64,000 nucleotides of DNA from Bacteroidota bacterium. GTDB taxonomy: Bacteria > Bacteroidota > Bacteroidia > B-17B0 > Aurantibacillaceae. How positions within the stretch are numbered: the first letter of the stretch is position 1; the number at the start of each line of letters is the position of its first letter. The DNA lies in the NCBI GenBank assembly GCA_021156365.1, contig JAJNDK010000005.1:186001-250000 (forward strand), written 5' to 3'. Shown piece after piece: positions 40,327 through 49,045 of the stretch. A program made the position numbers and the translations under genes. The notes under the pieces were generated by a model. That model did not search any database. It worked only from the letters and a program-made list of their open reading frames with translations, and had not been told where the DNA came from.

Positions 40327-43300
40327 CTACCTGATCACATGCAAATGCCCGTTCAGTTCTTTCGGAGCATCCAGGTTGTTTTTGATCTTCGGGCTTACTT
40401 TTATTTTATAAATGTATGTTCCTATTTCTACCAGTGTTCCGTTTAGCTTTCCGTCCCAGGCACCATGCTCCCAATCTGTCGTATTAAAAATACGTGTTCC
40501 CCACCTGTTGTATATGGACATTTCATAATCCGTTTCATCCACACCAACACCCACAGGTCGCCAGGTTGGATTATACTCATCCGTATTCGGTGTAAAACAA
40601 TTAGGGACATATACTGCAAATTCTCCTTCTACAAGGATGGTAGTCCCTATAGAATCCGTGCAGCCAAAACTGTTTTGTACAAGCAGGGTAACCATGTGAT
40701 TGCCTTCCTCATCAAAGCTCCAACGTGGATGTTCTGTTACTAAAGTACTATCCCCGTCAAAAGTCCAGATATACGTGGAGCCGCTCGTGCTTTCATTCGT
40801 AAATACAACAAGCGGATCGTAGGTAGTCGGGAACAGCGGGCTATAACTGAATGCTGCATCCGGCACAGGGTAAGCCTCAATAAAATCACTTACCGACGAA
40901 TTTGCCGAGCAGCCATTATCACTGCTTGTAACCGTGAGCACAGCGCCGTAGAGACCGGCCTGCGTAAAACAGGCATCGCCATTGTATCCATCGATCACCG
41001 TGCCGTCGCTGAAAGTCCAGGTATATTGCCAAAGCGGGTTCGCCGCCAGATCAGGAACCAAAGAAACACAAACCGGAGCGCAGCCGGTGGTACCTGCCGG
41101 GGTGAACACAGCTATCGGCGGTATCGTATTGGAAAGTACTGTAACAGAAGCCGTATTTACACAACCGTTGGACGGATCCGTTACAGCGAGTGTATAAGAA
41201 CCTGAAGCAGAAACGGTGTGAGTTGAAGCAGCAGAACCACCTATCCATTGATAATTTAATCCACTGACAGAGCTTGATCCTGTCAGCACAACAGAGGGCT
41301 GTGCGCAGGTAATGATGCCCGGTGCAGCGATTGAAACATCCGGGATCGAAGCATTCGAGCTTACTGTGGCATCAGCGATATTCGTACAACCATTGGCAGG
41401 ATTTGTTACTGTCAATGAATACGTTCCTACCGTGCTGACTGTGTAGTTTGCATTAAACGGGCCGCCAGACCATTGATACGTTACTCCGGCAATACTGCTG
41501 AAGCCCGCGAGTGTAACATTGGAGGTGACACAAGTCAACTGGGCAGGTGGGGTTATGGAAACATCGGGCAATACTACATCTGATACTACCGTAACAAAAG
41601 CAAAGCTGCTGCACATATTTGTCAGGTCGGTAACAGTAAGCGTATAAGTGCCTCCTGCATTTACTGTATGAACAGGAGAAGCAGGACCGGAAGTCCATTG
41701 ATAAGCTACACCTGCCGTGGTACTGGAACCGGTAAGCGTAACAAAACTGTTTGAACACGTGATCGTACCGGGAGCGGCAATACTTGCATCAGGAAAAATT
41801 CCTGTATTAATTACCGTTACTGTTGCAGGCGCTGTACAACCATTCACAGGATCTGTTACAATAAGAGAATACGTTCCCGCCGTACTTACATCATAATTGG
41901 CTGTTGCCGGACCGCTTGTCCATTGATAGCTAACACCCGGCGTACTGCTCGATCCGGTCAGCGTTACAGTTGTAGTTACACAATTAAGTGAAGCCGGACT
42001 TGCTATAGAAACATCAGGAATTGTGGTATTGGATGAAACCGTGGTGGTTGCGGAATTTACACAACCATTCGCAGGATTTGTCACAGTCAATGTGTACGTG
42101 CCAGCTGCAGCCACAGTATGTGTAGCCGTTGACGGTCCCGATGTCCATTGATAGGATACTCCTATAGTAGCGCTGGATCCTGACAGTGTGGAAGAAAGGT
42201 TTACACAGGTCAGGGTTTGGGGCGCTGCTATATTTATATCGGGAGTGATCGTGTTGGAAGTAACAGTGACACCTGCAGCATTCCAGCAGCCATTCGAAGG
42301 ATCGGTAACGATCAACGTATACGTGCCGGCGGAAGACACCGTATATCCGGCAGTTGTAGGTCCTCCACTCCATTGGTAGGAAACTCCCGGTGTGGTACTG
42401 GATCCTGTTATAGCTACCGTAGATGTTACACAGGTTATTTGCGAAGGAGCCGCTATACTGATAGTGGGCGCTGTTGTATTGGATATTACTCCTACGGTCG
42501 CAGTGTTAGTGCAACCATTCGCAGGATTTGTTGTCGTTAATGTATACGTGCCGGCAGAAGTTGCCGAATAGTTGGCAGTAGCAGGTCCACCTGTCCATTG
42601 ATAGGTAACGCCGGGTGTAGAGCTGGAACCTGTAAGCGTAACTATTATTGTAGAGCAGGTCAATTGTGTCGGTGTTGCTATGGCCGCGTCCGGAACAGCC
42701 GTATTGGAAATGAGTGTTACAGTTGAAGATGCTGTACAGCCGTTCAGCGGATCTATTACACTGACTATATAAGTACCCGCGGTGCTTACTGCATAATTGG
42801 CGGTGGCAGGGCCCGATGTCCACTGATAGGTAACACCCGGTGTTGTGCTGGATGCTGCCAATGTTATGGTAGTAGTTGTACAGGTAAGCTGCGCGGGTGG
42901 AGCAACATTCACATTCGGCATGCTTGTATTGGAAGTAACAGTCGTAGTTGCTGTAGCTGTGCAACCATTGACCGGGTTTGTTACCGTTAAAGTATAAATA
43001 CCGCTTGTATTCACCGGATAATTAGTTGTTGCAGGGCCGGTAGTCCATTGATATGTAACACCCGGAGTCGTACTGGAACCTGCGAGTGTCACAGTAGTCG
43101 TTGCACAGGTTAATTGTGCAGGTGCAGCTATGCTGATTGTTGGTATTGTGGTATTCGAAGTGACAATTGCTGTTGTTGTATTGATACAGCCGTTTGTCGG
43201 ATTCGTTGCAGTTAAAGTAAAGGTGCCTGCGGTGGTTACCGGATAATTAGCAGTTGCGGGACCGGCAGTCCATTGATAAGTAACACCAGGTGTTGTACTC

Positions 43301-45288
43301 GAACCTGTCAACGTAACTGTAGTTGTTACACAGGTTAATTGTGCCGGCGCTGCTATGCTTACATTTGGCGCTGTAGTGTTGGAGGTAACTGATACAGTAG
43401 CTGTATTTGTACAGGTGCCTGCATCCGTAACAGTCAGAGTATAAATCCCGGCTGCATTTACCACAGGTGTGGAAGTGCTGCCTCCGCTAACAATGCCGGC
43501 ACCTGTCCAGCCATAACTAACTCCCGGTGTTGTACTGGAGCCGTTCAGGCTAAGTGTTGTAGTTGTACAGGTAAGTTGCACCGGTGCCGCAATAGATGCA
43601 TCGGGAACTATAGCAGTATTGGTAACTGCAACAGTTGCAGTGTTCGTACAGCCATTGGCCGGATTAGTTGTGGTGAGTGTGTATGTACCGGCTACAGTTA
43701 CCGGATAGTTAGCCGTTGCCGGGCCGGAAGCCCATTGGAAAGTTGCACCCGAAGTTGTGCTGGAACCTGCTAAAGTAACAGTGGTGGTAGTGCAGCTTAA
43801 TGAAGCCGGTGCTGCTATAGTTGCATTGGGTAAAGTTGTATTGGATGTAACCGTTGTAGTAGCCGTACTTGTACAACCATTAGCCGGATTTGTGACCGTG
43901 AGGGTATACACGCCTGCCGTAGTTACTGCATTAGTAGCAGTTGCGCTGCCAGACGTCCATTGATACGTTGCACCCGGAGTTGTACTGGAGCCTGTCAATG
44001 TAACTGTTGTCGTTGTACAGGTCAGTTGCGCGGGAGGTGCGATGCTTATATTAGGTGGTGTAGAAGCGGAAGTAACACTTACGGTAGAAGTTGCTGTACA
44101 GGTGCCACTTGTAACAGTTAATGTATATGTTCCCGGCGCGTTAACGGAAGGGGTTGTCGTACTTCCACCACTTACAATTCCCGGTCCGGTCCAGCCGTAT
44201 GTGACACCCGGTGTTGCACTTGATCCATTCAGTGTCACTGTTGGGTTTGCACAGGAAATAGCCTGGGTAGTTCCGGCATTTGCATCCGGCACTCCGGCAG
44301 CTGTGATAGTAAAACTAAGTGTTTGCGTACAATGAATAGCGCTTTCTACCTGTACGGTATAAATTCCTGCACACAAACCATTGACAGCAGCCGTTGTAGC
44401 TCCATTGGACCAATGATACGTATAAGGGCCGATGGAACCTGAAGGAGTTACACTGGCGCTTCCGGTACAGGTGCAACCCGCATTGGCAGATCCGTTCGTC
44501 ACAGAGAGTGGTGTAATTGGATTACAACCATTATTGAATTGATTGATGTATGCAAGATTCGCTGCATTATTGGCCGAGCCGGGAGTTTCGTTGCCGGGAG
44601 CGTTTCCCTGCGACCAATTGGCTTGCATATTCGGATCTCCCGAATTAAAATACCAGTTCCTCTGACCGCCGGCACCCGAAAAATAAATAAGATTGTTTTG
44701 ATTATCCGAACCCCAGCAAACGGAGAATACTTCGCAACCCGATAAATTCACGATGCGTGCACAGTCTCCTGGATTGGCAAGTACGGTATTGTTCCAGTTT
44801 CCTCCCGCAGACCAGCCTGATGGAGGATAACTACAGGCACTTGCTCCAGGTGTCGTCGAATTCTTATCAAATAATGTGGTATTATAATCCGGGGCGATGA
44901 TCCTGCAATTTCCATCGGTAAGACTAACATCGTCCGGCGGGATAGCACCGTTTCTATCACTGCCATAATAGATCAGGATGATCGTTCCAACCGGAACACA
45001 GGACCACATCGCGTCATTTGAAAACCGCATGCAACCAGGTGCAATACCACTTCCGCCATGATATCCGCTATTGTCGTCGAAGATCCATCCCCTGATATCG
45101 ATACATGGTGGAGTGGTGATCCCGCTGCAGCTATACACAACCGTAGTGTCGACCACCACCAGCTCTACATATTCTTTGTTACCGCTGGGACCGTTAGAAA
45201 CTTCATTGATAATAAGTTTTTGCGCGGAAATTTTCCCGGCGCAACCTATCATAACGAACAATACTATTATATATGCAATTCTCTGCAT
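40327..45288 (-). CDS. Giant SprB-like T9SS adhesin with 14 tandem 75-residue repeats
   Basis: The 1653-residue protein has a signal peptide (to residue 22, KISAQ) and a lamin-tail-like domain (about 24-250: KLIINEVSNG, NKEYVELVV). One SprB repeat follows (about 261-331: SGSIGPYTYHWSNGATTAAV), then 14 near-identical Ig-like repeats (about 337-1392), each with two cysteines (LTC and NGC). PKD-like domains (about 1400-1550) and a type B sorting domain complete it (1559-1653: VPNCFTPNTDEYNPTWRPVG, EMSIYNRWGTRIF). It should be a long surface filament exported by the type IX system, for adhesion or gliding. It converges on the PorP/SprF gene. Confidence 0.9.
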   Translation of the reverse strand: MQRIAYIIVLFVMIGCAGKISAQKLIINEVSNGPSGNKEYVELVVVDTTVVYSCSGITTPPCIDIRGWIFDDNSGYHGGSGIAPGCMRFSNDAMWSCVPVGTIILIYYGSDRNGAIPPDDVSLTDGNCRIIAPDYNTTLFDKNSTTPGASACSYPPSGWSAGGNWNNTVLANPGDCARIVNLSGCEVFSVCWGSDNQNNLIYFSGAGGQRNWYFNSGDPNMQANWSQGNAPGNETPGSANNAANLAYINQFNNGCNPITPLSVTNGSANAGCTCTGSASVTPSGSIGPYTYHWSNGATTAAVNGLCAGIYTVQVESAIHCTQTLSFTITAAGVPDANAGTTQAISCANPTVTLNGSSATPGVTYGWTGPGIVSGGSTTTPSVNAPGTYTLTVTSGTCTATSTVSVTSASTPPNISIAPPAQLTCTTTTVTLTGSSTTPGATYQWTSGSATATNAVTTAGVYTLTVTNPANGCTSTATTTVTSNTTLPNATIAAPASLSCTTTTVTLAGSSTTSGATFQWASGPATANYPVTVAGTYTLTTTNPANGCTNTATVAVTNTAIVPDASIAAPVQLTCTTTTLSLNGSSTTPGVSYGWTGAGIVSGGSTSTPVVNAAGIYTLTVTDAGTCTNTATVSVTSNTTAPNVSIAAPAQLTCVTTTVTLTGSSTTPGVTYQWTAGPATANYPVTTAGTFTLTATNPTNGCINTTTAIVTSNTTIPTISIAAPAQLTCATTTVTLAGSSTTPGVTYQWTTGPATTNYPVNTSGIYTLTVTNPVNGCTATATTTVTSNTSMPNVNVAPPAQLTCTTTTITLAASSTTPGVTYQWTSGPATANYAVSTAGTYIVSVIDPLNGCTASSTVTLISNTAVPDAAIATPTQLTCSTIIVTLTGSSSTPGVTYQWTGGPATANYSATSAGTYTLTTTNPANGCTNTATVGVISNTTAPTISIAAPSQITCVTSTVAITGSSTTPGVSYQWSGGPTTAGYTVSSAGTYTLIVTDPSNGCWNAAGVTVTSNTITPDINIAAPQTLTCVNLSSTLSGSSATIGVSYQWTSGPSTATHTVAAAGTYTLTVTNPANGCVNSATTTVSSNTTIPDVSIASPASLNCVTTTVTLTGSSSTPGVSYQWTSGPATANYDVSTAGTYSLIVTDPVNGCTAPATVTVINTGIFPDASIAAPGTITCSNSFVTLTGSSTTAGVAYQWTSGPASPVHTVNAGGTYTLTVTDLTNMCSSFAFVTVVSDVVLPDVSITPPAQLTCVTSNVTLAGFSSIAGVTYQWSGGPFNANYTVSTVGTYSLTVTNPANGCTNIADATVSSNASIPDVSIAAPGIITCAQPSVVLTGSSSVSGLNYQWIGGSAASTHTVSASGSYTLAVTDPSNGCVNTASVTVLSNTIPPIAVFTPAGTTGCAPVCVSLVPDLAANPLWQYTWTFSDGTVIDGYNGDACFTQAGLYGAVLTVTSSDNGCSANSSVSDFIEAYPVPDAAFSYSPLFPTTYDPLVVFTNESTSGSTYIWTFDGDSTLVTEHPRWSFDEEGNHMVTLLVQNSFGCTDSIGTTILVEGEFAVYVPNCFTPNTDEYNPTWRPVGVGVDETDYEMSIYNRWGTRIFNTTDWEHGAWDGKLNGTLVEIGTYIYKIKVSPKIKNNLDAPKELNGHLHVIR
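41113..44280 (-). repeat. 14 tandem repeats of about 225 bp within the giant adhesin
   Basis: Each unit encodes about 75 residues of the type SIAAPAQLTC...GVTYQW...GTYTLTVTNPANGC...VTSNT. Twelve units have 75 residues. Units 1 and 4 have 77 and 79 and share a variant core (WTGPGIVSGGST / WTGAGIVSGGST). The array spans 3.2 kb and is prone to recombination and mis-assembly. Confidence 0.85.
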
Positions 45289-47841: not shown

Positions 47842-47940
47842 TGCGGCGAATAATTGGCGTATTCGCCGCATAATTTGCGGTGAATAATTTTAAAATGCGG
47901 GGAATAAGATGTATATTTGTTGCATAATTTGCGGTGAATA
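47842..47940 (+). promoter_or_regulatory. Operator-like array of five TGCGGnGAATA sites and promoter of the fic gene
   Basis: TGCGGCGAATA at 47842-47852, its inverted form at 47860-47870, and direct copies TGCGGTGAATA (47876-47886), TGCGGGGAATA (47896-47906) and TGCGGTGAATA (47930-47940). Direct copies start 34, 20 and 34 bases apart. The -7 element TATATTTG (47912-47919) lies between copies 4 and 5, and the last site is 5 bases from the fic ATG. A repressor bound here would block transcription; the Fic protein's own winged-helix end is the natural candidate. Confidence 0.75.
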
Positions 47941-47944
47941 GCAA

Positions 47945-49045
47945 ATGAAATACATCTATCAATATCCGGATTGGCCTGAATTTTACTGGGATAACGAAGC
48001 AATATTGCCCGTGCTTTCGGAAGTACGCCATTTGCAGGGAAGGCTGGTGGGCAAAATGGAAACGCTTGGTTTTGCATTGCGTTCGGAAGCCGTTCTTGAA
48101 ACACTTACCCTGGATGTATTAAAATCAACCGAAATAGAAGGTGAGTACTTACAGCAGAACCAGGTGCGCTCTTCCATTGCACGAAAACTGGGACTGGATG
48201 TTGCAGGGCTGGTGCGATCCGACCGGCATGTAGATGGTGTGGTAGAAATGATGCTGGATGCTACCCAGCATTTCGGAAAAGCCCTTCATAAAGATCGTTT
48301 GTTTGGATGGCATTCTGCTTTATTCCCTGCAGGCAGAAGCGGGATGTATAAAATAGTTACTAGCAATTGGCGCGATGATTCGACAGGACCGATGCAGGTT
48401 GTATCAGGTGCTATGGGCAAAGAAAAAGTACATTACCAGGCACCGGCAGCCCGCACGTTGAACCATTTGATGAATGCATTCATCAAATGGTTCAACGCAG
48501 ACAAAACTATGGATCCGGTGTTGAAAGCTTCGCTCACACATCTCTGGTTTGTAACTATACATCCTTTTGATGACGGTAATGGGCGGATAGCACGTGCTTT
48601 GACGGACCTGCAGCTTGCCCGCGCCGACGGTCACAATCAGCGATTCTATAGTATGTCGGCACAAATACGCGTAGAACGGAACAGCTATTACAAAATCCTG
48701 GAGAAAACCCAGGGCCGTGATCTTGATATAACTGCGTGGCATTTGTGGTTCCTCGATTGCCTGCACAAGGCATTAAAAGCATCCAACAAATTACTGGAAG
48801 GTGTTTTATCCAAAGCACGTTTCTGGGAACTGCATAAACATACGGAGTTGAATCTTCGCCAGCGCGTGATGTTGAACAAAGTGATGGATGGATTTGAAGG
48901 AAAACTGACAAGCAGCAAATGGGCCAAAATTACCAGATGCTCCAATGACACTGCGCTGCGGGATATCCAGGACCTCATGAATAAAAAAATGCTGAAGAAA
49001 GATGCCGCAGGAGGAAGAAGCACGGGGTATGAAGTGATGCTGTAA
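47945..49045 (+). CDS. Fic family AMP-transferase with N-terminal DUF4172-like and C-terminal winged-helix domains
   Basis: The 366-residue protein carries the complete Fic catalytic motif HPFDDGNGRIAR (residues 206-217), so it should transfer AMP from ATP to a target hydroxyl. The autoinhibitory helix motif (S/T)xxxE(G/N) is present N-terminally as STEIEG (61-66), making it a class II Fic protein that holds itself inactive. Residues 1 to about 80 are a DUF4172-like domain (YIYQYPDWPEFYWD). The last 75 residues look like a winged helix (LTSSKWAKITRCSNDTALRDIQDLM). It is a single gene with a dense operator array and a perfect 42-bp palindrome in its coding region. The target protein is unknown. 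Confidence 0.92.
   Translation: MKYIYQYPDWPEFYWDNEAILPVLSEVRHLQGRLVGKMETLGFALRSEAVLETLTLDVLKSTEIEGEYLQQNQVRSSIARKLGLDVAGLVRSDRHVDGVVEMMLDATQHFGKALHKDRLFGWHSALFPAGRSGMYKIVTSNWRDDSTGPMQVVSGAMGKEKVHYQAPAARTLNHLMNAFIKWFNADKTMDPVLKASLTHLWFVTIHPFDDGNGRIARALTDLQLARADGHNQRFYSMSAQIRVERNSYYKILEKTQGRDLDITAWHLWFLDCLHKALKASNKLLEGVLSKARFWELHKHTELNLRQRVMLNKVMDGFEGKLTSSKWAKITRCSNDTALRDIQDLMNKKMLKKDAAGGRSTGYEVML
48456..48497. repeat. Perfect 42-bp palindrome inside the fic gene
   Basis: The 21 bases 48456-48476 (beginning CGTTGAACCATTTG) are the exact reverse complement of 48477-48497 (ending CAAATGGTTCAACG), with no loop. It encodes residues of the helix before the Fic motif (LNHLMNAFIKWFNA). Confidence 0.95.

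Follow-up and report, generated by a model that had tools for sequence, protein, structure and literature searches.

CccR of Yersinia pseudotuberculosis is a Fic protein with a helix-turn-helix (HTH) domain and a demonstrated repressor of its own promoter, where it binds palindromic sites near the -35/-10 elements and where repression needs the dimer (PMC9755527). In CbFic2 of Coxiella burnetii, DNA-induced dimerization switches the enzyme from AMPylation to deAMPylation; random DNA alone was tried, neither an operator nor autoregulation is known for CbFic2, and the authors name the sequence that it binds specifically as a question still to be answered (PMC10628234). SoFic of Shewanella oneidensis (PDB 3eqx, 3zec) is likewise a class II Fic protein with a C-terminal HTH, for which DNA binding is not shown according to PMC10628234. 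Here, we analyzed a stretch of 64,000 nucleotides from a Bacteroidota bacterium (contig JAJNDK010000005.1, positions 186,001 to 250,000; hereafter the window), in which an array of TGCGGnGAATA half-sites stands directly in front of a fic gene. Comparison across homologues suggests, with a probability that we put at about 0.88, that the Fic protein uses this array as an operator to repress its own gene.

Among solved structures, the nearest relative of the window protein is CbFic2 (PDB 8cil; E 1e-97, TM score 0.83-0.88, whole length alignable), which binds DNA and has the identical architecture of DUF4172, class II Fic domain and winged HTH. The likeness to CccR lies in the combination of a Fic enzyme with C-terminal HTH, a class II inhibitory motif and inverted sites at its own promoter (PMC9755527), whereas the operators differ: that of CccR is AGATAATCAT-N26-ATGATAATCT, with 10-bp boxes 26 bp apart, and the window array consists of F18R16F triads of TGCGGnGAATA (F, forward half-site; R, inverted half-site; distances in bp between starts). 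The window system would, by this comparison, work like CccR but through another type of operator. The entry 7xux matches the window protein weakly (E 6e-5, TM score about 0.5); we take it to be the CccR structure, judging by title, length and date only. The PADLOC model of SoFic matches most of the window protein (E 7.8e-40), and the NCBIfam SoFic equivalog NF046030 gave 51.2 bits against a cut-off of 550; a defense role is possible from this distant PADLOC match. No description of the operator or of its conservation was found in the open literature searched, and a literature search for the 11-mer returned nothing on Fic regulation and, by titles, chance occurrences only. The elements of the locus are as follows.

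47842..47852, + strand: half-site F0, TGCGGCGAATA, distal triad; exact match, fits the array
47860..47870, - strand: half-site R18, inverted TGCGGCGAATA, distal triad; exact match
47876..47886, + strand: half-site F34, TGCGGTGAATA, distal triad; exact match
47896..47906, + strand: half-site F54, TGCGGGGAATA, proximal triad; in the promoter spacer, upstream of the -7 element; exact match
47912..47919, + strand: -7 promoter element TATATTTG (Bacteroidota consensus TAnnTTTG), from sequence and a register conserved in homologues
47914..47924, - strand: half-site R72, degenerate inverted TATTTGTTGCA, proximal triad; overlaps the -7 element
47930..47940, + strand: half-site F88, TGCGGTGAATA, proximal triad; between the likely transcription start and the start codon; exact match
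47945..49045, + strand: fic gene, 366 amino acids, DUF4172, Fic domain and C-terminal winged helix, from Pfam, PDB 8cil, fold match and AlphaFold2 model
48851..49036, + strand: winged-helix domain, residues 303-364, with model helices 304-314, 323-330 and 334-346 and strands 350-352 and 362-364
48944..48982, + strand: recognition helix, residues 334-346, with residue 334 (Asn) as the main specificity position, from covariation and modeled secondary structure

The original prediction had described five copies of TGCGGnGAATA, with starts of the direct copies 34, 20 and 34 bases apart and a 19-base repeat; all five proved exact (47842+, 47860-, 47876+, 47896+ and 47930+), the spacing was verified, and the 19-mer GCATAATTTGCGGTGAATA at 47868-47886 recurs identically at 47922-47940. 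Five exact 11-mers in the window compare with an average of 0.19 over 100 dinucleotide shuffles, where the highest count was 2 and five copies never arose. A sixth half-site that had been overlooked, TATTTGTTGCA, lies inverted at 47914-47924 with three mismatches and overlaps the -7 element; with this degenerate copy a second F-R-F triad is complete. The six half-sites thus form two triads with starts at 0/18/34 and 54/72/88, and 4 bp separate the end of the array from the ATG. The array is most naturally divided into triads (F, 18 bp, R, 16 bp, F), of which there are two, 54 bp apart.

Searching for the 11-mer elsewhere in the genome, as had been proposed, gave 15 exact copies in 5.3 Mb, five of them in the array, against 4 for the reversed pattern. 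Pairs of sites reveal additional order. At up to three mismatches, the F-N7-R palindrome and the R-N5-F pair each occur twice in the 5.3-Mb genome, all four within the array, and the reversed control of this whole-genome search gave zero pairs of either kind; F0/R18 is the sole exact F-N7-R palindrome in the genome. Control of a regulon in the same genome by such an array was ruled out, as no further paired site was present at up to three mismatches.

In the encoded protein, DUF4172 (PF13776) scored 110.8 bits against a gathering cut-off of 25 and Fic (PF02661) 58 bits against 24 in Pfam; the Fic motif HPFDDGNGRIAR is intact at residues 206-217, and the class II inhibitory motif STEIEG lies at residues 61-66. 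The protein therefore shows both the HPFx(D/E)GNGRxxR motif and the N-terminal inhibitory (S/T)xxxE(G/N) of class II Fic proteins, and E65 and most Fic-motif residues are invariant in 57 homologues. The C-terminal winged helix that had been assumed is borne out by the AlphaFold2 model (mean pLDDT, the predicted local distance difference test, 92; input alignment made without plasmid-derived rows), which has three helices and two strands at 304-364.

Conservation of the array was investigated in homologues gathered from genome contigs, whole genomes and plasmids, with genes located by tblastn anchoring and arrays scored by a six-slot position-weight model (F R F F R F) that was kept frozen for loci added later. 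In the initial set, 134 of 135 homologues at ≥44% identity scored above every shuffled and reversed control, and the array was found in 79 of the 81 homologues fetched after the model had been built. In total, the motif upstream of fic homologues, which the original prediction had named as its check, is present at 207 of 210 DUF4172-Fic-winged-HTH homologues at ≥44% identity, and at none of 13 loci of other Fic families. Array-bearing homologues belong to Bacteroidota, Pseudomonadota and other phyla; outside Bacteroidota, complete plasmids of Methylocystis, Sinorhizobium, Bradyrhizobium, Acetobacter, Cupriavidus and Moraxella carry the gene. The geometry within triads is rigid: at ≥44% identity the F-R distance is 18 bp in 95/106 distal and 165/172 proximal pairs, the R-F distance is 16 or 15 bp within triads, and the spacing between triads is loose (18-23 bp). 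The proximal triad is retained in about 87% of homologues and the distal one in 55-59%.

Two of the three homologues that failed the model (L278 and L279) have, by eye, an array written in other letters, TGTTACrAATA, and their proteins have an altered recognition helix, CT[R/K]MTATRD. A divergent clade at 30-41% identity has mainly TGAGCCGAwTA or TGAGGCGAwTA half-sites and keeps the F-R distance of 18 bp (35/42 close pairs), with palindromes spaced otherwise (R-F mostly 26 bp). In the TGAGCC clade (e.g., L162, L164, L168 and L281), the final inverted half-site extends into the start codon (CGGCTCATG), and operator and ATG thus overlap.

The proximal triad is in fixed register with the promoter, F54 lying in the spacer, R72 on the -7/-10 element and F88 between the likely transcription start and the ATG. 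TAnnnT occurs at the proximal R site in 125/185 homologue loci versus 10/124 at the distal R site. When Bacteroidota loci are aligned on the proximal R, a -33-like TTtG is followed by F54 and then by TATATTta merged with the R half-site; in homologues of other phyla, a -35-like CTTGC is found, F54 again lies in the spacer, TATATT or TATAAT is merged with R72, and AGG stands between R72 and F88. In 64 of 182 loci, the last half-site shares 1-3 bases with the start codon; in 31 more, no more than 5 bases lie between the two, and in 31 further loci the start call is ambiguous, with an ATG inside the last half-site. Half-sites lie across the -7/-10 element, within the promoter spacer and over the start codon, which makes repression the likely sign of regulation, and the layout suggests a repressor that blocks RNA polymerase.

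The identity of the binding protein was addressed by covariation, measured as mutual information with sequence weighting over 207 homologues and all 366 protein columns. Residue 334, the first of the modeled recognition helix 334-346, ranked first of 366 for motif position 5 (z 8.8), for position 6 (z 9.4) and for both together (z 10.8), and residue 338, one helical turn beyond, ranked second for position 5 and for both positions together. K334 pairs with TGC[A/G]AC in 24/25 homologues and H334 with TGCGTA in 6/6; where Q, A or P stands at this residue, TGCGGA prevails, and with N, S or T the usual form is TGCGG[T/C]. In the window protein, residue 334 is N, and the half-site copies in front of its gene have T, C and G at n of TGCGGn. 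These associations were further examined by a hold-out in which the residue rule learned on the first set was used to predict positions 5-6 in 79 new loci (C and T pooled): the residue rule was correct in 73/79, the nearest Fic-domain neighbor in 65 and a majority guess in 50, and where rule and neighbor disagreed the residue was right in 13 cases and the neighbor in 5. In independent pairs on supported branches of a tree built without the winged helix, position 6 and residue class gave about 7 same and 0.1 opposite of 13 (median p 0.016), and T5 with H334 gave 5 same and 0 opposite of 6, too few for significance alone. R339N accompanies TTCGG (L143, L150) and S333H accompanies TACGG (L135, L246, L252); the links of residues 339 and 333 and of K334 are suggestive, resting on few evolutionary events. 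A comparable correlated change of DNA-binding-domain residues and site letters is described for the MerR family (Prot-DNA-Korr, PMC5045206); MerR proteins are dedicated regulators, whereas here it is an enzyme's own winged helix that changes together with its own promoter. Such covariation would be expected from direct read-out by Fic's own recognition helix and seems hard to explain by another regulator.

The model of Fic autorepression put forward by the original prediction is therefore supported both by the motif at 207 of 210 orthologues and by covariation with the Fic recognition helix, and it is very probable that the enzyme binds in front of its own gene and silences it. As we envisage it, the C-terminal winged helix would be the part of Fic that contacts the half-sites, with dimers probably occupying the F18R palindrome, a pair spacing also kept in the divergent clade; the occupied array would exclude RNA polymerase, such that the enzyme limits its own synthesis, and the distal triad would add affinity or cooperativity. 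The relative CbFic2 becomes a deAMPylating dimer on binding DNA (PMC10628234), which makes it probable that Fic molecules on the operator are kept in the deAMPylating state as well. Several points weigh against this model. Autorepression rests on sequence comparison, and its sign is deduced from site position; the association of K334 with A5 reflects few changes on the tree and is without independent-pair support; mis-binned metagenome-assembled genomes and wrong taxon names of some bins may inflate the number of phyla. Moreover, the site also occurs apart from the gene: in a survey of 395 genomes of the same class (overlap counted by hand), the palindrome with up to two mismatches was present in 66/94 genomes with a homologue and, as a solitary site, in some 30/301 without a full-length one (7 genomes for the reversed control), four of these homologue-less loci containing a fic fragment.

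A different weighting of the two activities deserves consideration, namely that the array mainly holds Fic as DNA-bound deAMPylating dimers, with repression secondary, and that free Fic, for example after operator loss or replication, is an AMPylating monomer. Such a switch would draw on the behavior of CbFic2, the closest solved relative, in which DNA binding induces dimerization and deAMPylation (PMC10628234), and it would account for a number of sites well beyond the need of simple repression in front of an enzyme that has both the inhibitory and the catalytic motif. We regard it as unlikely, though worth keeping in view, given that CbFic2 also responded to random DNA. In addition, the proximal triad is promoter-locked in most homologues and is retained at a higher rate (about 0.87) than its distal counterpart (about 0.57), both of which suggest that transcription comes first. 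A combined version, in which the triad array is operator and allosteric effector at once, the 18/16-bp half-sites assembling a DNA-bound, deAMPylating and self-silencing Fic complex whose AMPylating monomers are freed by operator loss or titration, is more speculative still. If it were true, plasmid loss, replication and phage attack would be the triggers, the locus would be guarded by an enzyme without antitoxin, and where fic is absent, a solitary array would be a scar or decoy of this one-gene module.

The covariation also speaks against each of the remaining readings. Some repressors act on neighboring toxin genes, as is generally known, and another global or local regulator might accordingly bind here; this is very improbable, as the half-site letters track Fic's own recognition helix, the paired site is unique in the genome, and homologues sit on plasmids and chromosomes among unrelated neighbors. 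The same helix argues for the Fic protein as the binder. An RNA element, either a hairpin in the transcript or a terminator of the upstream TPR gene, is suggested by F0/R18, which could form an 11-bp hairpin just downstream of that gene, but copies without an inverted partner keep identical letters, the letters covary with a protein residue, and the Rfam search gave no credible match (a single hit at E 0.76 and 14 bits versus a gathering score of 174.8), making this explanation hardly credible. Slightly less remote, yet still improbable, is a mobile or recombination repeat (similar to a miniature inverted-repeat transposable element, or marking sites of fic gain and loss). Solitary triads in some fic-less genomes, second arrays behind fic and relics with an array beside the fic 3' end all favor it, whereas promoter register and recognition-helix covariation are unexpected for a plain repeat; mobility could still hold as an additional property of an operator.

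In four relics (L316:2001-2177, L321:2001-2115, L323:1865-2029 and L326:1816-2029), the array lies directly beside a fic 3' fragment encoding part of the winged helix; each is a separate internal deletion whose 5' break falls at or beside the array, and no intact homologue of this type is present at the locus. Further solitary palindromes, mostly full triads and several of them perfect, occur in genomes without a full-length homologue at L317, L318, L319, L320, L322, L331, L332 and L333 (around position 2001) and at L330 (around 634), some adjoining other Fic, AbiEii or PIN-domain genes; they may be excision scars, decoys or operators of other genes. Second arrays were observed right behind the stop codon of an intact fic in L137 (downstream of 2589), L210 (2595) and L212 (2598; all positions in fic orientation), by which a reading of arrays in control windows as false positives was ruled out. 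Most simply, these loci would reflect frequent loss of fic with the array staying behind, perhaps through recombination between arrays on either side.

An operator of this kind would provide a widespread AMP-transferase family with the specific DNA sequence that the study of its best-characterized member named as missing, and would open DNA-switched (de)AMPylation to study with true operator DNA instead of random oligonucleotides. It also offers a natural recognition code in which one helix residue largely predicts two operator letters, so that operators of uncharacterized homologues become predictable, and it suggests a one-gene self-limiting module where toxin-antitoxin pairs need two genes. 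In the window, no antitoxin gene adjoins fic in the neighbor check at the locus, which is thus unlike a type II toxin-antitoxin pair; fic is preceded by a gene for a TPR membrane protein and followed by that for elongation factor P. The neighbors of fic homologues vary, with loci on plasmids and chromosomes among unrelated genes, and a plasmid collection contains 348 records with a DUF4172-type Fic homologue (E below 1e-40), frequently next to genes for transfer or transposition; the DUF4172-type fic looks like a mobile single-gene module. Elsewhere in the window, positions 40327-45288 (- strand) encode a 1653-amino-acid protein, probably secreted, with repeated PKD-like domains and a C-terminal type IX secretion signal domain (CHU_C).
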